IMG/VR virus record: IMGVR_UViG_3300030099_001784
Coordinates: 1 to 23,387 of that record
DNA from: a virus
Reading direction: 5' to 3' (one strand)
DNA length: 23,387 nucleotides
Below are positions 606 through 13,801 of the stretch, piece by piece; the stretch's first letter is position 1; each line of letters starts with the position of its first letter. A model generated the notes under the pieces. That model was not told the DNA's origin, did no database searches, and saw only the letters and a list, made by a program, of their open reading frames with translations. The translations under genes were made by a program, and so were the position numbers.

Positions 606-2966
606 ATGACTAATAGTTTTCAAAGCACCGCCTTTCAACCTCAAGCAAGTCCTGTAGATACTTTTGTACAACCTGTATCTGTACAACCTAAAAGTGGTAT
701 TGAGCAGTTAGCTGAAACATTAAAATCCATAAACCCTGCTATACAAAGTTTTTTAGAAACAAGGATAGATCAAGCTGTAAAAGAAGAAGAAGCAGAAGGT
801 ACAGAATTAGCTATTGAAGATGCTGCTAAGAACTTTAAAGATATAAGTAGAGGTGTAAAGAAAACTGATGGAGAAGATGCTGCTAGAAGACTAATTGGTG
901 GAAGTATCTTTGCAGATCGTGCCTATCAAAGAACTAAAGCAGAAATCTTAGGTAACAACTTAAAAAGTACTTTATCCAATAGCTATGCAACCACACAGGT
1001 AGATGGTAAATCTTTAAATAGTTTTTCTCTTCAATCACCACAGTTTCAAACATGGCTTGAAGGAGAAAAAACAAGAGTTGTTGATCAGTTAAGTGATATA
1101 AATCCTACCTATGTAAATAAATACTTTTTACCAAAATTAGCTGAAGCTACAACTACCGTAACCTCTAGTCATATAGAACAACATCAGGAATATAATCTTG
1201 AAAGATTAAAAAACTTAGCTGTTCCTCTAGTAAAAGGATTGATAGTAAGTGATGATGAAGAAGACCAGACTTTAATCACTACTTTTGAAGAAAGTATGAA
1301 TAATTTAGGTCTTGTTACTAAAGATAGAAGTAATCTCAACAAAACAATAGTTGGAGTTTTACTTGATCAGGCAGAGGCTGTTGGTCTTTCTGGTGATGGT
1401 GATATAGAAGGTGCAGAGAATATTTTAGATATAGCTTTAAAGTTTCCTTATGGTGTTGATGGTAAATTAAACCTTACTGCCCATCCTGATTATCAAGGCA
1501 AAGTAAACACATTAAAAAAACAAATAAATGATTTTGCTTTTACTCAGGAGAAACGCAGACAGATACAAAAGGAAAGAGATAAAAATGATGACATCGTAAA
1601 CACTATTGGTAGATTTGCAGAAACAGGTGATGCAAGCCTTATAACTAATTTACAGAAAAAATATCCATTAGAAGCATCAAAAATTGGTAATGCTGCTGTT
1701 GCTTTAGATGGTAATACAAGAGAAAGATCAGCACAGATAGAAACAAGAATAATAAATGATGGCTTTGCTTCTAAGGCAGATGCAGCTACTGCTGCTTTAG
1801 GTTGGTATTTAGATGAAAGAACTCCTAAGACTCAAGCAAACAGAACTAGATTAAGTCAACTTCTAGGAGTTGCTAATGGTTCTGAGAATGGAGATTTTAG
1901 TAACTTAAATAAGATGTTATCAGAATTAAATAGCCAACTAAAAGGTGAGTTTAGTGGAGCATTATTTATTACAGGTACAACAGGTCAACTTAATGACAAA
2001 GGTTCTTCTGCTGTGAATGATCTTTTTAACGCAGCAAAACTAGAATCAATTCGTTACATCTTAGGTGAGGGTAAAGGTGTAGATCCTTTAACTGAAATTG
2101 AAAAATTAGAAGAGATTAAACAAAAAGCTATTAAAAAGGCTAGAGATCAAGTGAATTTAGTAACACCAAAAAGCGGAGTGACAGAGGTAGGAGAAAACGA
2201 AGGACAAAACTTAAGTGATATAGAAGGTGATTTTGAAGCAGGGGCAGCAACAGAAGTGACAGATGAAGAAGCAAGACGGATTATAGAAGCAGAAGATGCA
2301 GAGGAGAATAATATTTTTACAGTAAAAAGAGGTGATACTTTAACCTCAATAGCAACACAAACAGGAGTATCAATTCCTAATCTAATCAAACTAAACAAAA
2401 TAAAAGATCCAAATAACATACAAGTAGGTGACAACTTAATTCTTAAAGAAACAGAAGCAAAAACTACTGAAGCAACTACTAAAACAACAACAACACCAAC
2501 TATCACTCAAAGCAGTAAACAACAGTCTATTGTTACAGCAGCTAATGAATTAGGAATAAAACCAAAAGATCTTGCGTCTGTAATATCACAGGAAACAATG
2601 GGTACTTTTAATCATCAGATAACAGGTGGTGAAGGAGGTAACTATAAAGGGTTAATTCAGTTTGGTATTCCAGAGCGTAAGAAATATGGATATAGAGATG
2701 ACATGACCTTTGAAGAACAGATTACAGGACCAGTCGTAAGATATTTAAAAGATAGAGGAGTAAAACCTGGTCATGGTGTTAAGGAGATATATGCAGCTAT
2801 ATTGACAGGTAATGTATCAACTCTCCAACGTGATGGTCTAACAAGAACAGATTCTTTTGGAACATCAGTTGAAAGTGCATTGCCAGAGCTAAGTCAGGGA
2901 GGTTCACATTACAACAATGCCCTTGATTTTCTTGCAGAACAAGGAAAGTTTAAACAAAAATCTTAA
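606..2966 (+). CDS. internal virion protein with LysM and lytic-transglycosylase-like domains (gp15/16 slot)
   Basis: A 786-aa protein starting at the ATG 2 bases after the previous stop. Residues 1 to about 540 are helical and charged with no recognised domain. A LysM peptidoglycan-binding domain spans about 569-616 (FTVKRGDTL, then NLIKLNKI and VGDNLIL). A Thr-rich linker (about 620-640) follows. The C-terminal domain, from about 650, resembles soluble lytic transglycosylases: E663 in VISQETMG fits the catalytic glutamate, followed by GGEGGNYKGLIQFG. The likely role is local cutting of the cell wall by the ejected core so that DNA can cross the envelope. In T7 the transglycosylase sits at the N-terminus of gp16. 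Here it is on the preceding protein and paired with LysM, so the modules are arranged differently. The domain calls are by eye. Confidence 0.8.
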   Translation: MTNSFQSTAFQPQASPVDTFVQPVSVQPKSGIEQLAETLKSINPAIQSFLETRIDQAVKEEEAEGTELAIEDAAKNFKDISRGVKKTDGEDAARRLIGGSIFADRAYQRTKAEILGNNLKSTLSNSYATTQVDGKSLNSFSLQSPQFQTWLEGEKTRVVDQLSDINPTYVNKYFLPKLAEATTTVTSSHIEQHQEYNLERLKNLAVPLVKGLIVSDDEEDQTLITTFEESMNNLGLVTKDRSNLNKTIVGVLLDQAEAVGLSGDGDIEGAENILDIALKFPYGVDGKLNLTAHPDYQGKVNTLKKQINDFAFTQEKRRQIQKERDKNDDIVNTIGRFAETGDASLITNLQKKYPLEASKIGNAAVALDGNTRERSAQIETRIINDGFASKADAATAALGWYLDERTPKTQANRTRLSQLLGVANGSENGDFSNLNKMLSELNSQLKGEFSGALFITGTTGQLNDKGSSAVNDLFNAAKLESIRYILGEGKGVDPLTEIEKLEEIKQKAIKKARDQVNLVTPKSGVTEVGENEGQNLSDIEGDFEAGAATEVTDEEARRIIEAEDAEENNIFTVKRGDTLTSIATQTGVSIPNLIKLNKIKDPNNIQVGDNLILKETEAKTTEATTKTTTTPTITQSSKQQSIVTAANELGIKPKDLASVISQETMGTFNHQITGGEGGNYKGLIQFGIPERKKYGYRDDMTFEEQITGPVVRYLKDRGVKPGHGVKEIYAAILTGNVSTLQRDGLTRTDSFGTSVESALPELSQGGSHYNNALDFLAEQGKFKQKS

Positions 2967-6535: not shown

Positions 6536-8869
6536 ATGGCTACTAACACTGCTGCATCTTTTACAAACCATACTGGTAATGGTACTGCTGGTCCTTTCAG
6601 TATCTCCTTCTCCTATCTATCAGAAGCTGAAGTTGATGTTACGGTTGGTGGTGTCTTAAAAACTATTACCACCCATTACACATTCACCAGTGCTACACAG
6701 ATTACATTTACCAGTGGTAATGAACCTGGTAATGGTGTTGCTATTAATATTCAAAGAGATACAAATATAACTGCTAAAAAGGTAGATTTTAATGATGGTA
6801 GCGTTCTTACAGAATCAGATCTTGATACACAGAATGATCAGATACTATTTGCAGTACAGGAAAACTTACGCAAACTAGACACCATAGAAGAAAATGCCAC
6901 TGGCGATCAGACAGATGCAGAGATAAGAACTGCTGTAGGTAATGCAACTGATAGTAATGTCTTTACTGATGCAGAAAAAACTAAATTAGCTGGTATATCT
7001 ACAGGAGCCACTACCGATCAAACAGCTAGTGACATAAGAACTCTTGTTGAAAGTGCCAGTGATAGCAACGTATTTACTGATGCCGATCATACAAAGTTAA
7101 ACGCTATTGAAGATAATGCAACTGCCGATCAAACTAACTCTGAGATCAAAACAGCTTACGAAGCAAACAGTGATACTAATGCCTTTACCGATGCAGAGAA
7201 AACAAAACTATCAGGTATAGCTACTGGTGCTGAAGTAAACGTACAATCAGACTTTAATGCCACTTCTGGTGATGCTGTAATCCTTAATAAACCAACAATA
7301 CCGAGTGCCTTAAATGACCTGTCAGATGTTAATACTACTGGTGCAGCAGATGGCAAGATACTTAAATTTCAATCATCCAGTAATACTTTTATTATTGCTG
7401 ATGACGCTAACGATGGAGGAGGTGGAGGAGGTGGTAGCTTAACTGATGGTGATAAAGGTGATATAACTGTTTCTTCGTCAGGTTCTTCCTGGAGTATTGA
7501 TGCTAGTGCAGTATCAACAAATAAAATAGCTGATGATGCTGTAACACAAGCAAAGATAGCTGATGATGCGGTGGGTGCTGATCAAATAGCAGCAAGTGCT
7601 GTTGTAACAGGTTCTATAGTAGATGACGCTGTAACACAAGCTAAAGTTGCAGATAACGCTATTGGTGCTGATCAAATAGCTGCTAATGCAGTAGGTGCTA
7701 GTGAGTTAGCAGATAATGCAGTTGATGAAGCAGCTATCGCTGATGATGCTGTTACAAGAGATAAGATTAATGCAGTATCAACATCTTCATTACCAAGTTT
7801 TGAGGCTAAAGGTGATGGAAGTTCACAAGATGGATATATACAACTTAACTGTTCACAAAATAGTCATGGTGTGAAAATTAAATCACCTCCTCATAGTGCT
7901 AATGCAAGTTATACATTAACTCTTCCTAATAATGACGGTGATGCAGGCCAGTTCTTAAAAACTGATGGTAGTGGTGTATTAAGTTTTGATACCGTTTCTC
8001 AACCTGATTCAGATAAGATTACTGAAGGCAATACAGAAGCAGAAGTAGTTGATACTGGTTCTGATGGACACTTTAAAGTAACTACAGAAGGTACTGAAAG
8101 ATTTAGAGTTATAGCTGATGGTAAGGTCGGGATCGGTACTTCCACTCCAGGAGAACTGTTACAAATCTATGATGCGTCTGGTAATCCAACAATTAATGTC
8201 AGGGCTAATAATCAAAACACTGCTTCATTAAAACTTGAAAATGACGATGGTGATTGGACTATCTCTTCTGGAACTTCTAGCTACCCTTTGAATTTTGCAG
8301 TTGGTGGCAGCAATAAATTAACAATACTGAATGATGGTAAGGTTGGCATTGGAGATACAACACCATCTACAGAGTTAGAAGTTAATGGAACAGTTACAGC
8401 AACAGCTTTTGCAGGTAGTGGTGCAAACCTTACTGGTATTTTAGGAGGGATTGTAGGTTTTAAACATGTAAGAAATACAAGTACAACAAGTTTGAATACA
8501 ACAAGTTTCACCACAATTTTTTCAATATCTTATACACCTCAAGATGGTGCAAATAATAATGTTTATGTTTTTGTAAGTGGACAGTTTGAACAAGATGATC
8601 AAGATGGACAAAAGGCAGAGTTTAAAATTTCTTGTAGTGGTCAACATACTACTGATATTGTAGGTAGTGAACAAAAAGTTGGAACTGATCAGAACCAACA
8701 GTCAAACTCATCAATTTGCACATTTTTAAACGATACAAACATTTCAAATAACAATGCGATTACATATAACTTTCAAGCAAAAACAACTTCTTCTCAATCT
8801 GACTTTAGACCAAAGACAAGTTTGTGTTTAACGGTTATTGAAGTAGCATCTGGAGTAGATCAATCTTAA
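6536..8869 (+). CDS. tail fibre protein, gp17-like
   Basis: A 777-aa modular fibre. Residues 1 to about 115 match the T7 gp17-type virion-attachment domain in character (GPFSISFSYLSEAEVDVTV, VDFNDGSVLTESDLD, DQILFAVQE). Residues 123-233 are three 37-aa repeats. A run of eight glycines and a serine (about 292-300) makes a flexible hinge. Residues 329-408 are eight decapeptide repeats. From about 520 there are two KVGIG..TP blocks of the kind seen in many marine phage fibres. The last ~130 residues (from GFKHVRN) form a separate, probably receptor-binding tip. The protein binds the baseplate-like tail at its N-terminus and the host surface at its C-terminus. A further fibre-like C-terminus lies just downstream in another frame, which suggests that the tip has been exchanged. 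Confidence 0.88.
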   Translation: MATNTAASFTNHTGNGTAGPFSISFSYLSEAEVDVTVGGVLKTITTHYTFTSATQITFTSGNEPGNGVAINIQRDTNITAKKVDFNDGSVLTESDLDTQNDQILFAVQENLRKLDTIEENATGDQTDAEIRTAVGNATDSNVFTDAEKTKLAGISTGATTDQTASDIRTLVESASDSNVFTDADHTKLNAIEDNATADQTNSEIKTAYEANSDTNAFTDAEKTKLSGIATGAEVNVQSDFNATSGDAVILNKPTIPSALNDLSDVNTTGAADGKILKFQSSSNTFIIADDANDGGGGGGGSLTDGDKGDITVSSSGSSWSIDASAVSTNKIADDAVTQAKIADDAVGADQIAASAVVTGSIVDDAVTQAKVADNAIGADQIAANAVGASELADNAVDEAAIADDAVTRDKINAVSTSSLPSFEAKGDGSSQDGYIQLNCSQNSHGVKIKSPPHSANASYTLTLPNNDGDAGQFLKTDGSGVLSFDTVSQPDSDKITEGNTEAEVVDTGSDGHFKVTTEGTERFRVIADGKVGIGTSTPGELLQIYDASGNPTINVRANNQNTASLKLENDDGDWTISSGTSSYPLNFAVGGSNKLTILNDGKVGIGDTTPSTELEVNGTVTATAFAGSGANLTGILGGIVGFKHVRNTSTTSLNTTSFTTIFSISYTPQDGANNNVYVFVSGQFEQDDQDGQKAEFKISCSGQHTTDIVGSEQKVGTDQNQQSNSSICTFLNDTNISNNNAITYNFQAKTTSSQSDFRPKTSLCLTVIEVASGVDQS
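6902..7234 (+). repeat. three 37-residue coding repeats in the fibre shaft
   Basis: Three in-frame units of 111 bases. Each reads approximately xDQTxxEIRTxxxxxSDSNVFTDAxxTKLxxIxxxA. Protein similarity is high but synonymous codons differ, so this is an old duplication kept by selection and not a recent slip. It probably forms a trimeric shaft segment. Confidence 0.85.
7520..7759 (+). repeat. eight decapeptide repeats in the fibre (xxIADDAVxx)
   Basis: Residues 329-408 fall exactly into eight ten-residue units such as AKIADDAVGA, DQIAANAVGA and AKVADNAIGA. The regular I/L at position 3 and A-V/I at 7-8 suggest a beta-solenoid or helical trimer shaft. The matching 30-base DNA units could recombine and change shaft length. 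Confidence 0.85.
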
Positions 8870-8988: not shown

Positions 8989-9112
8989 TCTTATGTTGCA
9001 TCTGCCTTGTCATTAACCCCATAGTGACGTAGAGAGGGCTGATTGCTACTATAAGAAGCAGAACCACTAAACTCATCATTGAGCAAGCTCGTATTATCTG
9101 GTATTTAATCAT
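8981..9112 (-). CDS. possible small single-span membrane protein (43 aa)
   Basis: The minus strand reads an ATG (bases 9112-9110) to a TAA (8983-8981): MIKYQIIRAC, then a hydrophobic span SLVVLLLIVAISPLYVTM (about residues 14-31), then a polar Gln/Lys/Arg/His tail. The hydrophobic core with flanking basic residues is what a small inner-membrane protein (for example a pinholin-type or regulatory peptide) would look like. Its start codon overlaps the start of the + strand gene at 9111 through a shared CATG, and its end overlaps the fibre remnant. No ribosome binding site is visible. It may be a chance ORF, although nothing else explains this stretch. Confidence 0.4.
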   Translation of the reverse strand: MIKYQIIRACSMMSLVVLLLIVAISPLYVTMGLMTRQMQHKTN

Positions 9113-9341
9113 GTTTCAAAAGATAGCTAATGTTTTGAGTATTCTCTCATTCATAATGGTAACTTCAGTTATCGGTGGAGGGTACTTTGGATATAAGTAT
9201 GTAACATCTGAGCAGTTTAAAGCAAAGATAATGAATCAAGTTATGGGTAATGTAAAAGGTATGATGCCTAATGTATTAGATAAAGGCTTACCTAAAACAA
9301 CAGGGCCATCTATGGCTATTCCTAAAAAACTTGGATTGTAA
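9111..9341 (+). CDS. small membrane-anchored protein of a cyanophage family
   Basis: A 76-aa protein with one transmembrane segment at about residues 7-28 (NVLSILSFIMVTSVIGGGYF). It is followed by GYKYVTSEQFKAKI, a helical region, and a Lys/Pro-rich end. I recognise this kind of sequence as recurring in marine cyanophages, but I know no function. The next gene starts at the base right after its stop, so the two are probably one translation unit and may act together. No good Shine-Dalgarno is seen before the ATG. Confidence 0.7.
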   Translation: MFQKIANVLSILSFIMVTSVIGGGYFGYKYVTSEQFKAKIMNQVMGNVKGMMPNVLDKGLPKTTGPSMAIPKKLGL

Positions 9342-9971
9342 TTGAAAATACCAGAAATAAATATACCTGACATACAAATACCAGAAGTTTACGTTCCACA
9401 AGTATCGTTACCAGGGTATGAACCTTTAAATGTAGAAACTATAGGTTGTAAATATTTTCATCGAGATGTTAAGAATACTGGTAACAGAAATTTATTGATA
9501 GACGATCCAAACGGGGTTGTAAGTAACTGTCCATATCCATCTTTTATTCCAATGAACTATCAGGCGGATCAATTGATTATTGTTGAGGAAGCTGCCGTTG
9601 TAAATGACGAACCAGCAAAGTTACCAGAAGGTAAACCACCTCAAGCTGAAATACCAAAAGAAAAGAAAAAAGGTGATGTATTTGTAGAATGTCCTGGTAA
9701 GAACGATCAAAGAGTAGGTGACTTTCGTAACGAAAAGAAGCTGGAACGTGTTGTAGGGCATAAAAGAAGCGAAGATGGAACTATATGCACCACGTTGTAT
9801 GAGGACGTTGCTTTCAAAGATCAGTACCTCCCAGAATTTAGCACTGTTGTCTCTACTGCTGCTATTGCTACTGTGGCTGCGACTACACCAATTATTCTCA
9901 ACCTTGTAAAACCGATAGTAAAAAACTTAATTAAGAAGGTAACATCAAAGAAGAAAACTAATCAGTCTTAA
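9342..9971 (+). CDS. IP-repeat protein with C-terminal membrane anchor, unknown function
   Basis: A 209-aa protein starting at a TTG immediately behind the previous stop. The N-terminus has a proline-periodic pattern (KIPEINIPDIQIPEVYVPQV, residues 2-21) likely to form an extended rod. The middle is charged and holds several cysteines (C36, and others near residues 64, 118 and 150), which may form disulfides. Residues about 168-190 (VVSTAAIATVAATTPIILNL) form a hydrophobic span followed by a Lys-rich tail, so a tail-anchored topology is likely. Similar N-termini occur in cyanophage proteins as far as I recall. The function is unknown; a virion or envelope role fits the late position. It meets the minus-strand operon tail to tail with a 14-base overlap. 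Confidence 0.7.
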   Translation: MKIPEINIPDIQIPEVYVPQVSLPGYEPLNVETIGCKYFHRDVKNTGNRNLLIDDPNGVVSNCPYPSFIPMNYQADQLIIVEEAAVVNDEPAKLPEGKPPQAEIPKEKKKGDVFVECPGKNDQRVGDFRNEKKLERVVGHKRSEDGTICTTLYEDVAFKDQYLPEFSTVVSTAAIATVAATTPIILNLVKPIVKNLIKKVTSKKKTNQS

Positions 9972-10671
9972 TTGTGTGCGTATGTGGTATAACTTGATTT
10001 GGTGGTACTGTTACTTTTATCCCTTCACAAATCTCTGCGTATTTTCCAACGAACTGTACTCCTAACTTTGCCTGTTCTCCACATACTTTTAGCCTAAATA
10101 ATGCAAGTTCTAATTTTGTCTTTTCGTATAATATTTTTTGATTTTTTATATTTACTTCTGTTGCTTTTAAACATAAGTCAGGTGCTTTACCTAACGGAAT
10201 ACTGATCTGTGCTGAGATCCCATAGTTCAAGTTATAGTTATCTTTTTCAAATCTTGGTGTCTCCTGCACATACTTTATAGCTCCAGTATCTTCATCATAA
10301 ATATTCTGTCTGGTAACGTATTCTATGGGTCGATTGAATGACCAAGCATCTGTCACATAAGGGGTAATTGTAAGACTAGGAGAACTACAAACAATACCTT
10401 GAGACATACGAAACTGAGGTGTTGATTGAGGTGCAATCATAGTTGCATTATTATTTACTGTACCCTGTGCATTAGAACTAGGACTTGCAACTGTTGTATT
10501 AGCCAAAACTCTTGTAGGACAAAGGATTAGAGCTATTGCCCAAAGGTAGCTTCTACGGTTACGGTGGTTGTTGTGTTTATTGTGCGATTTATTGTAGTTA
10601 TCGTGTCTAACCCTGGTGAGATTATCGTTTCTTGTAGAGAAAATGGAGATCCTTCTGTTACTATCTGCCAT
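9958..10671 (-). CDS. exported cyanophage protein with long basic N-region (237 aa)
   Basis: Last gene of the minus-strand operon. The mature part (from about N58) includes NYGISAQISIPLGKAPDLC and then a helical segment with LFRLKVCGEQAK, a pattern I recognise from cyanophage genomes without a known function. Four cysteines in the mature part suggest oxidising conditions. Residues 37-57 (RNRR, then a hydrophobic core at 43-51, then VLA|N) are a signal peptide h-region and cleavage site. The ATG at 10671 lies 139 bases inside the upstream gene and is preceded by GGAGAG at 9 bases, so this start has a ribosome site. No other ATG, GTG or TTG precedes the hydrophobic core. The first 39 residues are thus overprinted, very basic (many Arg, Asn, His) and atypically long for a signal peptide. 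Confidence 0.7.
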   Translation of the reverse strand: MADSNRRISIFSTRNDNLTRVRHDNYNKSHNKHNNHRNRRSYLWAIALILCPTRVLANTTVASPSSNAQGTVNNNATMIAPQSTPQFRMSQGIVCSSPSLTITPYVTDAWSFNRPIEYVTRQNIYDEDTGAIKYVQETPRFEKDNYNLNYGISAQISIPLGKAPDLCLKATEVNIKNQKILYEKTKLELALFRLKVCGEQAKLGVQFVGKYAEICEGIKVTVPPNQVIPHTHTIKTD

Positions 10672-10970
10672 CTAGGAACACTCTCCAAAGTAGGGCTGGT
10701 AAAAGAGAAGTTGACGTTGTTAATAGTTTGAGTAGCGTCTGCCTGTGGTGTCGGGTTGATATAACCATTCGTATCATTGCTCTTTATATTATTCCCACTC
10801 GCAGAATATGTATAACCTGTACGATATTGATGGCTTGTAATAGTTTCATTAATAATACTCTGGGATGTAGAATTAGTGGTTTGACTACCAGTACGAAAGG
10901 TAGGCACAACAGGATTTGCAAGGGTTCTTGCAGGTAATATCATTATTATTAGCAAAAACCATTTAGTCAA
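10533..10970 (-). CDS. small exported Thr/Asn-rich protein (145 aa)
   Basis: Third gene of the minus-strand operon, with its start overlapping the previous gene by 8 bases. Residues 1-18 (MTKWFLLIIMILPARTLA) are a clear Sec signal peptide, with predicted cleavage after A18. The mature protein is rich in Thr, Asn, Ser and Ile and has no cysteine. It shares short blocks with the 171-aa protein upstream: TYSxSGNNI, then GSxFSLxE. The two genes are therefore probably an old duplication. No catalytic motif is seen. The last 40 residues (TITTINRTINTTTTVTVEA) look beta-rich. The function is unknown; it would act in the periplasm or outer envelope. Confidence 0.7.
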   Translation of the reverse strand: MTKWFLLIIMILPARTLANPVVPTFRTGSQTTNSTSQSIINETITSHQYRTGYTYSASGNNIKSNDTNGYINPTPQADATQTINNVNFSFTSPTLESVPRWQIVTEGSPFSLQETIISPGLDTITTINRTINTTTTVTVEATFGQ

Positions 10971-11478
10971 TGGTGATCGTTACAGTTGTTTGTCCAATAC
11001 AGCTAGTACCTGACCCTCCAGCAGTACAAGTATGAACACCTGATGAAAGGCTAGTCATACCAAGAGATCCTGCTGTACCACCTGATCCTACTGTTGTCTG
11101 TCCTCCAAGATGGGGTAATGCAGCAATACCTGCTGATGGGGTAACAGCCGATGGTGTTGCATCACCCATAGTTACTGATTCTGTCAAACTAAATGCTGAT
11201 CCTGCACTTGTAATGGCCTTGTCAGTCTGAATCATTGCTGGAACTCCTGCTGTTAAGCTGCCTACATTTAATCCACCAATTGCACCAGAGGTTGTTGACC
11301 CTCCAGAAGTCACAGAAGGAGTAATGTTATTACCTGATAATGAATAAGTCGTTCCAAGCTTATTTGTAACGCTATATGGCATATCTACAGTAATCTGTGC
11401 AGATGTTGTGAACTTTTGAGTTATGTCTGCAAAAGTTGCTGTTGGCAGTAAAAGCAAAAGTGGTAAAAGTCTTTTCAT
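10963..11478 (-). CDS. small exported Gly/Ser/Thr-rich protein (171 aa)
   Basis: Second gene of the minus-strand operon, coupled to the preceding gene by an ATGA overlap. Residues 1-17 (MKRLLPLLLLLPTATFA) are a textbook Sec signal peptide. The mature part is low-complexity Gly/Ser/Thr/Ala with blocks TTYSLSGNNI and SAFSLTESVTMGD that recur in the 145-aa neighbour. There are two cysteines near the end (HTCTAGGSGTSC), possibly a disulfide loop. It looks like a beta-rich surface or periplasmic protein. I recognise similar signal-peptide proteins in cyanophages but cannot name a function. Confidence 0.72.
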   Translation of the reverse strand: MKRLLPLLLLLPTATFADITQKFTTSAQITVDMPYSVTNKLGTTYSLSGNNITPSVTSGGSTTSGAIGGLNVGSLTAGVPAMIQTDKAITSAGSAFSLTESVTMGDATPSAVTPSAGIAALPHLGGQTTVGSGGTAGSLGMTSLSSGVHTCTAGGSGTSCIGQTTVTITID

Positions 11479-11903
11479 GATTTTGATTTGTCTTTGTTTT
11501 TGTCTACAACTTCAGCACCAATAATTTTTAGTGGTGTTTCTATTCTAATGGTTTGATAACCACCTGACTGTGTAGCTAATAACTGTTCCACTTCTTTCTT
11601 GTTCAATGGCTTATCTTCCTTCTTATATGTGCCATCACCTCTTTTCTTAGCACCCTCTAATCCAAAACTAGCTAATGCACCTGTTAGAAGCGAAGCAGGG
11701 AAAGTTATATCTTTTGGTTCTGTGCTGTATCCAGGTATTGTTATGTAGTTTAAAGAAACTATAAAACCACTCCAACCGACAACAACAAGTCTTACTACGA
11801 CTGAAATAAAAGCTAATTGTTCTTCTTTATCTTCAATCGTATTCTTTATCTTTTGAAGAGGATTAGGCTTTTTCTGTTCGTCCATGTTCTTGTTTTCTGT
11901 CAT
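11475..11903 (-). CDS. two-span membrane protein, holin-like candidate (142 aa)
   Basis: First gene of the minus-strand operon. The N-terminus is charged. A strong hydrophobic span lies at about 30-52 (LAFISVVVRLVVVGWSGFIV) and a weaker one at about 66-84 (ITFPASLLTGALASFGLEG), followed by KKRGDG and a charged C-terminal tail. Size, topology and the ASFGLEGAKKR-like end of the second span recall phage holins, and no other holin is visible in the window, but this is only resemblance. It is followed by genes for three exported proteins. It starts 27 bases from the divergent gene at 11931, leaving little room for promoters. Confidence 0.55.
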   Translation of the reverse strand: MTENKNMDEQKKPNPLQKIKNTIEDKEEQLAFISVVVRLVVVGWSGFIVSLNYITIPGYSTEPKDITFPASLLTGALASFGLEGAKKRGDGTYKKEDKPLNKKEVEQLLATQSGGYQTIRIETPLKIIGAEVVDKNKDKSKS

Positions 11904-11930: not shown

Positions 11931-12161
11931 GTGATTGAAGTAGTAGCAGCAGTAGGTGGAGCTTTGCTAACAGCTTGTTTTGTTTCTGTTGGTTCTATTT
12001 CCTATAGAGGAAGACAATCAAGAGATGATCTTGTAAGAAATACAACTGCAATAGAGTTATTAACAGATAAAATTGATTCTATGGATGATAATATGAAAGA
12101 AATTTTTCATAGATTAAAAGAAGTAGAACTTGCTGTAGTAGAACTTAAACCTAGAAGATAG
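11931..12161 (+). CDS. small membrane-anchored coiled-coil protein (76 aa)
   Basis: GTG start. Residues about 3-22 (EVVAAVGGALLTACFVSVGS) form one membrane span, followed by a basic stretch and a coiled coil over about 33-72 (heptad-like LLTDKIDSMDDNMKEIFHRL and on). Topology resembles an inner-membrane spanin or haemolysin-XhlA-like accessory protein, so a part in lysis is possible. No outer-membrane partner or lipobox was found. Divergent from the holin-like gene; an 8-bp hairpin follows directly. Confidence 0.6.
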   Translation: MIEVVAAVGGALLTACFVSVGSISYRGRQSRDDLVRNTTAIELLTDKIDSMDDNMKEIFHRLKEVELAVVELKPRR

Positions 12162-12260: not shown

Positions 12261-12422
12261 ATGCTTGCAATCATCAGACCAATCCTCTTCACCTTCCTCA
12301 GATCCAAAGCAATAAGACAACTTGCACTAGATCTGGTTCGTGCCTGTGTACAAAAAACTGATAATGATGTCGATGACAGATTATGCGATATGTTGGAGCA
12401 GGCATTATTTCCAGGTAAATGA
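12261..12422 (+). CDS. small conserved-looking protein (53 aa)
   Basis: ATG start and TGA stop, with an ATGA overlap into the next gene at 12419, which strongly supports translation. The N-terminus is hydrophobic-amphipathic (MLAIIRPILFTFLRSKAIRQ), then LALDLVRACVQKTDNDVDDR and an ending LFPGK. It could lie on the membrane surface. I recall proteins of this shape near the lysis or packaging genes of cyanophages, with no known role. Confidence 0.65.
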   Translation: MLAIIRPILFTFLRSKAIRQLALDLVRACVQKTDNDVDDRLCDMLEQALFPGK

Positions 12423-12748
12423 ACCATCAGGAATTTTTTGAAGTTCTCATTGGTACTACACCACCCGAAATAGAACTTGATATTGAAATCAGAAGAAGAG
12501 AAATCAAAGAGATGCCTAACGAAGTCGTTAGAGAAATCTGTCTTCAGTTAATGAAAGATAATAAATTACAGGATTTTCTCATCATGGCTGCCATAGATCG
12601 TATATCAGATATGAATACAAAGCTTATACGCCATGAAATATCAGAACATCACAGAACAAATAACATAAAACCAGCTAAAAAGAAAAAATATAAGACAAGA
12701 AAGACACTACTCGATAGGTTTAAGACTATGCTGAGCGTGTTCAGATGA
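12419..12748 (+). CDS. hypothetical protein (109 aa), translationally coupled
   Basis: Starts inside the stop of the 53-aa gene (ATGA). Mostly helical: an acidic N-terminal half (EIELDIEIRRREIKEMPNE) and a very basic C-terminus (KPAKKKKYKTRKTLLDRFK), which could bind nucleic acid. No motif was recognised. The 3' end overlaps the convergent minus-strand gene by 42 bases. Confidence 0.6.
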   Translation: MNHQEFFEVLIGTTPPEIELDIEIRRREIKEMPNEVVREICLQLMKDNKLQDFLIMAAIDRISDMNTKLIRHEISEHHRTNNIKPAKKKKYKTRKTLLDRFKTMLSVFR

Positions 12749-12931
12749 CCTTTTATCGTCCCATAACACTGTGTAATAGTATTGATTAGCACCAACACTA
12801 TTTGTCTTTGCTATAGCTTCTGTAACTGTTCCTATATGTTTCTTATATTTACTACCTGAGTAGCCAATCGTATGGTTTCTTACGACACGATCATCAATCT
12901 TAAACCTTTGTCCTACTATCTTGATAGGCAT
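12707..12931 (-). CDS. small basic beta-type protein of a cyanophage family (74 aa)
   Basis: The pattern FKIDDRVVRNHTIGYSG, then GTVTEA, then YYYTVLWDDKRSSEHAQH is one I recognise as recurrent in cyanophages: a short barrel-like fold similar to KOW/SH3 proteins, with an invariant-looking SEHAQH end. The function is unknown. It is the only minus-strand gene in the packaging area and overlaps the end of the 109-aa gene. It is separated by 44 bases from the divergent terS-like gene. Confidence 0.65.
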   Translation of the reverse strand: MPIKIVGQRFKIDDRVVRNHTIGYSGSKYKKHIGTVTEAIAKTNSVGANQYYYTVLWDDKRSSEHAQHSLKPIE

Positions 12932-13204: not shown

Positions 13205-13801
13205 TTGAAAGTTCTTGTAGCCTGTGAATACTCTGGCAGAGTAAGAGATGCCTTTATATCACAGGGGCATGATGCCATAAGTTGTGATCTACTGCCTACA
13301 GAGGTGGAAGGACCACACTATCAGGGAGATGTCAGAGACATCCTCTATGATGGTTTTGATTTGATGATTGCACACCCCAGTTGTCAGCACCTTGCAGTAT
13401 CAGGAGCAGCACACTTCTGGAGAAAAAAGAAAGAACAGAAAGAATCATTAGACTTTGTAAGACTGCTGATGAACGCACCGATACAGAGATGGTGTATAGA
13501 AAACCCTGTAAGTGTTATCAGTTCTGCCATAAGACAACCAGATCAGACAATACAGCCTTGGATGTTTGGTCATGGAGAGACAAAGGCAACATGCCTGTGG
13601 CTTAAGAACCTACCAAAACTAAGACCTACAGATATTGTTGAGGGTAGAGAACCAAGAGTGCATATGATGCCACCAGGACCTGACAGGTGGAAAGACAGAT
13701 CTCGTACCTATGATGGAATAGCACTGGCAATGAGCCAGCAATGGACAGAAGACAATCCTATTCAACTAAGCTTTCTTGAACAATATGCAACCGCTTCCTG
13801 A
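13205..13801 (+). CDS. cytosine-methyltransferase-like protein between the terminase genes
   Basis: A 198-aa protein with a TTG start. It begins MKVLVACEYSGRVRDAF, a Rossmann-type start like SAM-binding motif I. It has D28 in ISCDLLP, then DLMIAHPSCQHL (residues 52-63), where C60 falls where C5-cytosine methyltransferases have the catalytic Pro-Cys, and IENPVSVI with E99-N100, like motif VI (ENV). The usual proline before the cysteine is replaced by serine (HPSC), and the C-terminal target-recognition and motif IX-X regions of full enzymes are missing, so activity is uncertain. Phage proteins of this type are often annotated as DNA methylase. In this slot T7 carries lysis genes 18.5/18.7. The stop overlaps the start of terL by 17 bases. 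Confidence 0.65.
   Translation: MKVLVACEYSGRVRDAFISQGHDAISCDLLPTEVEGPHYQGDVRDILYDGFDLMIAHPSCQHLAVSGAAHFWRKKKEQKESLDFVRLLMNAPIQRWCIENPVSVISSAIRQPDQTIQPWMFGHGETKATCLWLKNLPKLRPTDIVEGREPRVHMMPPGPDRWKDRSRTYDGIALAMSQQWTEDNPIQLSFLEQYATAS

Follow-up and report, generated by a model that had tools for sequence, protein, structure and literature searches.

A cassette of exported and membrane proteins shared by marine cyanophages, with a possible late role in envelope disruption

Introduction

Within the 23,387-base IMG/VR virus fragment IMGVR_UViG_3300030099_001784 (the whole stretch is hereafter called the window), we analysed a minus-strand operon of four genes, g4-g3-g2-g1, which runs from 11903 to 9958 and is predicted to encode one membrane protein and three Sec-exported proteins. 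By gene content, the window belongs to a T7-like cyanopodovirus, and the late genes that flank the operon (the internal virion proteins, a T7-type tail fibre, TerS, and TerL) all lie on the + strand. The operon is a version of the T4-cyanophage cassette described in 2010 (T4-GCs 218/234/235/237), and the full unit extends past the four genes to include two convergent + strand genes, at 9111-9341 and 9342-9971 (Table 1). We propose, with a probability of about 0.4, that this cassette acts as a late envelope-disruption module that is not built from spanins.

An earlier note on this DNA had pointed out the four overlapping minus-strand genes and their orientation opposite to the late region, and both observations hold. 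The consecutive genes overlap by 4 nucleotides (nt; ATGA), 8 nt, and 139 nt, and all four match phage protein families (E 1.8e-60 to 3.4e-33). In tblastn searches, 250 phage records matched g3, 171 g2, 393 g1, and 310 g4, all of them from cyanophages or marine uncultured phages. These family matches and the hundreds of cyanophage records show that g1-g4 are real genes. The same note had said that no function was described for them, and this is right: all four families are of unknown function in PHROG, and DUF6322 and DUF6450 are named nowhere in the cyanophage literature searched. The families had, however, already been described as a conserved T4-cyanophage cluster (Sullivan et al. 2010). Searches of the cassette against NCBIfam and PADLOC gave no match above the cut-off, and a defence system was rejected for want of a PADLOC match.

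Distribution and layout of the cassette

In the passages of Sullivan et al. (2010; PMC3037559) that deal with this cluster, GCs 218, 219, 234, 235, and 237, in many cases accompanied by a plasmid-stability gene, form a cluster of unknown function that occurs in every cyanomyovirus studied except S-PM2, and it is termed a gene cassette that shows signs of being mobile. Homologues of GC218, GC234, GC235, and GC237 are found together in the window. The layout was followed by profile searches across approximately 280 IMG/VR loci, in which some contigs appear twice and which are sequence records with no host or phenotype data attached. The homologue of the gene at 9342-9971 (hereafter the partner) is convergent with g1 at 256 of 265 loci and co-directional at the other nine, and the two genes overlap tail to tail in 152 of 247 convergent pairs. 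g2 and g1 share a strand at every locus (277/277), as do g3 and g2 (245/245). At podovirus- and siphovirus-type loci, g4 lies beside g3 on the same strand (96 loci), and at myovirus-type loci it is placed before the + strand genes (89 loci). The cassette is thus spread over three tail types with its gene order conserved, and export, the duplicate pair described below, and the opposite-strand operon are conserved in the relatives.

A core of g4, g2, g1, and the convergent partner also occurs in siphoviruses and in the T7-like phages P-SSP7, P-RSP2, P-SCSP1u, and P-SCSP2. The last of these, an MPP-C cyanopodovirus (PMC9860041), is the isolate nearest to the window by TerL (77%; the RNA polymerases share 45%). 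In P-SCSP2 and P-SCSP1u, diverged minus-strand g4-g2-g1 genes occupy the same slot and are opposed by a + strand partner. The g4-g2-g1 genes of P-RSP2 likewise oppose the late-gene direction, and in P-SSP7 the order partner-g4-g2-g1 is entirely on the + strand, just before TerS and co-directional with the packaging genes. The partner, g4, g2, and g1 are jointly present in Syn9, P-RSP2, P-SSP7, P-SCSP2, P-SCSP1u, MED4-117, and S-TIM5, and jointly absent from S-PM2, Syn5, P60, P-SS2, S-CBS1, T7, and HTVC200P, with no mixed case of these four genes among the reference phages tested. g3 was not found in P-SSP7, P-RSP2, P-SCSP1u, or P-SCSP2; the core cassette is smaller, and probably older, than the g3-containing version in the window. 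A genome scan for a host copy returned only four loci, all on phage-like contigs binned with metagenome-assembled genomes (MAGs) or a single-amplified genome (SAG). Therefore, no host copy was seen, and a host origin of the cassette was set aside.

The out-of-frame start of g1

The g1 gene begins at an ATG at 10671, inside g2 and out of frame with it, and a TAG stands immediately upstream in the g1 frame. Consequently, the classical signal peptide of g1 is internal (about residues 40-57) and is preceded by an extension of approximately 40 amino acids (aa) encoded within g2. It should be mentioned that signal peptides and membrane spans were called throughout by a simple heuristic, which includes an AxA-like site pattern. 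Three clear Sec signal peptides had been claimed; those of g2 and g3 are ordinary and N-terminal, with cleavage of g3 predicted near residue 17, and that of g1 is present but internal. The pattern with an AxA-like site recurs in 221 of 237 unique g1 sequences, 185 of 205 for g2, and 181 of 192 for g3.

The overlap between the two genes measures 139 nt in the window and 139-178 nt in nearly all relatives; in P-SCSP2 and P-SCSP1u it is 56 nt and the extension is absent. At all 279 loci that have both genes, g1 occupies the -1 frame relative to g2, and at all but a few of these the g1 frame contains no stop over the 139 nt or more that precede the g2 stop. Among 97 non-redundant genomes, stops in the g1 frame within the last 138 nt of g2 number 0.02 per genome against 1.96 expected from reshuffled synonymous codons of g2; the upstream control region has 3.43 against 3.75 expected, and the remaining frame of the g2 end is full of stops. 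Since related phages are counted here as separate, it is the effect size and not a p-value that constitutes the evidence for stop purging. Translation of g1 probably starts at an ATG that arises where a codon ending in A meets TGG (Trp), at -139, -166, -172, or -178, often preceded by a GGAG-like sequence; at some loci a TTG or GTG takes its place. Divergence at 4-fold sites is not reduced in the overlap (0.435 vs 0.411 upstream), so amino-acid constraint on the extension is unsupported, and it is the openness of the frame, not a particular peptide, that is selected.

A programmed -1 frameshift is a less likely way of making g1: a slippery heptamer is absent at the g2 end, the TAG closes the frame directly before the ATG in the lineage of the window, and the g1 frame is held open right up to its ATG. 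The conserved out-of-frame start explains why g1 is truncated or missed in several reference annotations. The annotated starts in P-SSM2, P-SSM4, and P-RSP2 remove the signal peptide, although the open frame reaches far into g2, and in the P-SSP7 record (7969-8740) g1 is unannotated, with its reading split across two frames.

Mature g1 has four near-invariant Cys, found in 214 of 221 sequences. Its AlphaFold2 model shows beta strands followed by a helix of approximately 40 residues, at low confidence (pLDDT 64.6); Foldseek against the PDB found no fold match (best E 0.47), and the model is too weak for interpretation. A likeness of g1 to TolC and outer-membrane efflux proteins was also considered, and neither Pfam, a PDB sequence search, nor Foldseek supported it.

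The duplicate pair, g4, and the partner

g2 and g3 are homologous by hhalign profile-profile comparison (probability 96%, E 2e-9), and their cross matches agree, so the suggestion that two of the exported proteins are duplicates was well founded; g3 appears to have arisen from g2 by tandem duplication. The mature g2 protein has no Cys, and g3 has two or none. The AlphaFold2 model of g3 is all beta with low confidence (pLDDT 60.7), and Foldseek against the PDB found no fold match for it (best E 8.6); the structure predictions that had been proposed as a check are thus not interpretable for either protein modelled.

The membrane protein g4, described earlier as having two spans, has one strong and one weak span with basic tails on both sides. 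A single clear span is seen in 134 of 141 sequences, and the second falls under the cut-off. Its homologues include P-SSP7 gene 42 and P-SCSP2 gene 38. The partner, whose gene shares its last 14 nt with the end of g1, is Pro-rich and has a C-terminal membrane segment and a basic tail; it has no signal peptide. Its family contains 12% proline and one C-terminal span, with four Cys in 181 of 215 sequences. Partners of the P-SSP7 gene 41 type form PHROG 9426, linked to PHROG 570 by position and by a weak C-terminal match (P-SSM2, E 1.6e-4; P-SCSP2). An assignment of the partner to T4-GC219 proved wrong; it is T4-GC234.

Promoters and genomic slot

Upstream of g3, an NTAAATA motif is present at 30 of 46 non-redundant T4-like loci, nearly always at -28 to -41, against 7.9±2.4 in the Markov control and 0/46 in the coding control; the published late promoter of cyanomyoviruses is NATAAATA (PMC2984593). 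The late-promoter motif was not found at podovirus-type loci. In the window, no promoter for the operon stands out, sigma-70-like sites occur at chance frequency, and the gap between g4 and the divergent + strand open reading frame (ORF) at 11931 is 27 nt. The idea that the opposite orientation implies its own promoter and timing is therefore supported in the T4-like relatives, and nothing resolvable was seen in the window itself. As a separate observation, most of the approximately one-third of T4-like loci that have no late motif share a CCGAAC...TGTAAGG...CTAYATATAG block located between 20 and 80 nt before g3 (L004, L088, L168, and L213 are examples); it may represent a second class of promoter.

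In T7-like phages, the cassette occupies the slot between the tail fibre and TerS/TerL. In relatives, this slot holds a holin (gp50 of LUZ100) or a lysozyme (HTVC200P).

A possible late role at the envelope

With the core cassette, the question of how viruses of Prochlorococcus and Synechococcus get through the host outer membrane becomes open to a direct knockout test: four genes co-occur across unrelated lineages, with export signals and, in T7-like phages, a lysis slot. Kongari et al. (2018), who surveyed spanins and detected none in the 20 phages that infect these two hosts, suggested that picocyanobacterial outer membranes may just be fragile (PMC6139136). Among the phages that it lists as spanin-less are P-SSP7, P-SSM2, P-SSM4, P-RSM4, S-SM1, S-SSM5, S-SSM7, S-RSM4, and Syn9 (PMC6139136), and all nine carry the whole cassette or parts of it. 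For this reason, a late role in envelope disruption is the one that we rate highest.

The earlier note had offered lysis, superinfection exclusion, or modification of the cell surface; among the three, lysis or envelope disruption fits best, at the probability given above. It agrees with the slot, the late-promoter motif in T4-like relatives, and the spanin-less status of the carriers, and the co-occurrence of the core, the conserved Cys, the spanin-like overlap layout, and the spread over three tail types also argue for it. The match to known proteins that the note had named as counting against it did not appear: no cassette protein matches a known spanin, holin, or endolysin family, no enzymatic match was obtained, and the g1 and g3 models match no fold. 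In a more far-reaching and more tentative form of the proposal, the cassette might be an unrecognised non-lipoprotein system of outer-membrane disruption (lysis) in marine podoviruses, siphoviruses, and myoviruses, which would replace spanins in many spanin-less cyanophages and would include an exported protein with an overprinted extension ahead of its signal peptide.

Under the envelope-disruption proposal, the operon in the window would be the form that a cyanophage-specific envelope module takes in the podovirus, with its proteins made late in infection. g4, holin-like in size and layout, would sit at the inner membrane; g1, g2, and the duplicate g3 would be exported by Sec to the periplasm or outer membrane; and the Pro-rich partner would be a membrane-tethered component encoded convergently. 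The exported parts may build up in the periplasm as a disulphide-bonded complex and, acting with the membrane proteins, break through or destabilise the outer envelope when infection ends; they would thus serve the purpose of spanins although they are not spanins themselves.

Several observations weigh against this proposal. The survey likewise lists S-PM2, Syn5, P60, and PSS2 as spanin-less (PMC6139136), and S-PM2, Syn5, P60, and P-SS2 are without the cassette; therefore, the module is not a universal answer and other routes exist. A lipobox motif was found in none of 205 g2 sequences, none of 192 g3 sequences, and three of 237 g1 sequences, and no credible lipoprotein was found elsewhere in the window. 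Searches of Pfam, PHROG, and NCBIfam revealed no peptidoglycan-cleaving domain in the cassette, and the g1 and g3 models are of low confidence with no fold match. In T4-like phages the cassette adjoins replication genes and hsp20, outside any lysis cluster, and 16 of the 46 T4-like loci are without the late motif, 13 of these 16 having a different conserved motif, CTAYATATA/CTATATAG.

Superinfection exclusion is usually the task of one small early gene, and the four to six co-conserved genes seen here are many for it. We nevertheless consider a superinfection block, in which exported proteins would cover or modify the infected cell's envelope and so exclude further phages, the foremost alternative, though an unlikely one. 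The export signals, the restriction of the cassette to phages, its patchy occurrence in phages that share hosts, and the non-late upstream motif at 13/46 T4-like loci are in keeping with it, as is the absence of the T4 r genes (superinfection, lysis inhibition) from cyanomyoviruses according to a review (PMC2984593); the late-type motif at most T4-like loci and the lack of any match in the PADLOC library are not.

Less probable is export to the thylakoid lumen or periplasm in support of host physiology (photosynthesis, nutrient uptake, or redox). Cyanobacterial Sec signals can direct proteins to the thylakoid lumen, cyanophages carry plastocyanin (petE) and other photosynthesis genes, and g1 has conserved Cys. 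However, no host homologue was found apart from the phage-like contigs in MAGs and a SAG, no photosynthesis, transport, or redox family matched above the cut-off, and the place that the cassette occupies in T7-like phages is a packaging/lysis slot.

In the podovirus the cassette directly follows the tail fibre, and in MED4-117 it follows tail genes; these positions, together with a partner that has a C-terminal membrane segment and no signal peptide, might instead suggest minor tail or internal virion proteins that act at entry and not at exit. This too is improbable: cleavable Sec signals would remove g1-g3 from the cytoplasm, where virions assemble, and the S-TIM5 record labels other genes, not the cassette, as "virion structural", although annotation style varies and the S-SM1 labels are uninformative. 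Finally, a selfish or plasmid-stability-like mobile cassette that plays no part in the lytic cycle, as the signs of mobility and the plasmid-stability link in the passages of Sullivan et al. (2010; PMC3037559) on the cluster and the side-switching of g4 between myovirus and podovirus layouts might hint, is very improbable, given that gene order and the g2/g1 overlap are kept across deep phage lineages, that stops are strongly purged from the overlap, and that the "plasmid stability" gene is dispensable.

Neighbouring genes

The small gene at 9111-9341 belongs to a family that is a cassette member in myoviruses, siphoviruses, and the podovirus lineage of the window; this "plasmid stability" family was not found in P-SSP7, P-RSP2, P-SCSP1u, or P-SCSP2. 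The protein at 11931-12161 is present in some relatives only, and Syn5 gp47 is a similar-looking small protein in the same slot. The family at 12261-12422 occurs in most marine cyanophages tested, mostly adjoining TerS in podoviruses; it is not cassette-specific, because it is also found in Syn5 and S-PM2, both of which are without the cassette. A fifth minus-strand ORF (12707-12931, 74 aa) lies just before TerS, has a weak match to PHROG 1690 (E 0.001), and overlaps the 3' end of a + strand ORF (12419-12748). Between TerS and TerL is a DNA methyltransferase-like protein (13205-13801, + strand; PHROG 757). The one domain of muralytic appearance that was identified in the window thus belongs to a putative virion protein, namely the internal virion protein at 606-2966 (+ strand), which contains LysM and matches transglycosylase/endolysin families in PHROG.

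Table 1. Features of the window and their coordinates
Feature	Position	Strand	Description
g1	9958-10671	-	exported, 237 aa; T4-GC235; PHROG 848/1755
g1 signal peptide	10501-10551	-	SYLWAIALILCPTRVLA/N; spans the g2 stop codon
g2/g1 overlap	10533-10671	-	out of phase, 139 nt; g1 in the -1 frame of g2
g2	10533-10970	-	exported, 145 aa, TTG start, no Cys; T4-GC236; DUF6322; PHROG 650
g3	10963-11478	-	exported, beta-rich, 171 aa; T4-GC237; PHROG 564
g4	11475-11903	-	membrane protein, 142 aa, first operon gene; DUF6450; T4-GC218; PHROG 2714/721
Convergent partner	9342-9971	+	T4-GC234; PHROG 570
Small single-span protein	9111-9341	+	T4-GC414; PHROG 568, labelled "plasmid stability"
76-aa protein	11931-12161	+	N-terminal span, coiled-coil-like; PHROG 26178; divergent from g4
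53-aa protein	12261-12422	+	PHROG 2738/402; frequent neighbour between cassette and TerS
Internal virion proteins		+	
Tail fibre	6536-8869	+	T7-type
TerS	12976	+	
TerL	13776	+	
Integrase	19774	+	
RNA polymerase	20846	+	single-subunit

Comparison with known systems

The two-component spanins (Rz/Rz1 and T4 PseT.3/PseT.2; PMC6139136) resemble the cassette in being Cys-containing envelope proteins, in having out-of-phase overlapping genes (+1 and -1 are both known), and in occupying the same slot in T7-like phages. In overlapped spanin pairs, the downstream exported gene starts out of frame in the upstream envelope gene, -1 cases included (PMC6139136), and g1 lies in the -1 frame inside g2 in just this way, an arrangement that is common but not required among spanins. 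On the other hand, the cassette has three exported proteins instead of two and no sequence similarity to spanins, and g1-g3 include neither a lipobox nor an N-terminally anchored i-spanin beside an o-spanin gene: the signals of g2 and g3 are of the cleavable type, and the partner is anchored C-terminally. Nor is the partner a unimolecular spanin, since it has a C-terminal span and four Cys but no signal or lipobox. Because the lipobox and the N-terminal anchor are missing, the cassette is not a spanin. With the class II holins, g4 shares its small size, a charged N-terminal tail, a strong and a weak span, and a basic C-terminal tail; it differs in the weakness of the second span and matches no holin family.

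The MPP-C phages P-SCSP2 and P-SCSP1u (PMC9860041) share with the window the slot and the minus-strand g4-g2-g1 genes facing a + strand partner, but differ from it in the absence of g3, in their diverged sequences, in the 56-nt overlap, and in the annotation of the genes as hypothetical proteins. Also among the closest known systems is the cluster of Sullivan et al. (2010), to which all six families with T4-GC numbers in Table 1 correspond, in the same convergent layout as in S-SSM5, S-SM1, and P-SSM2. It differs in that the cassette here resides in a T7-like podovirus genome, with g4 joined to the g3-g2-g1 operon, and GC219 was not identified in the window. The passages of that paper on the cluster (PMC3037559) make no mention of export signals, paralogy, the overlap, or podovirus and siphovirus members.

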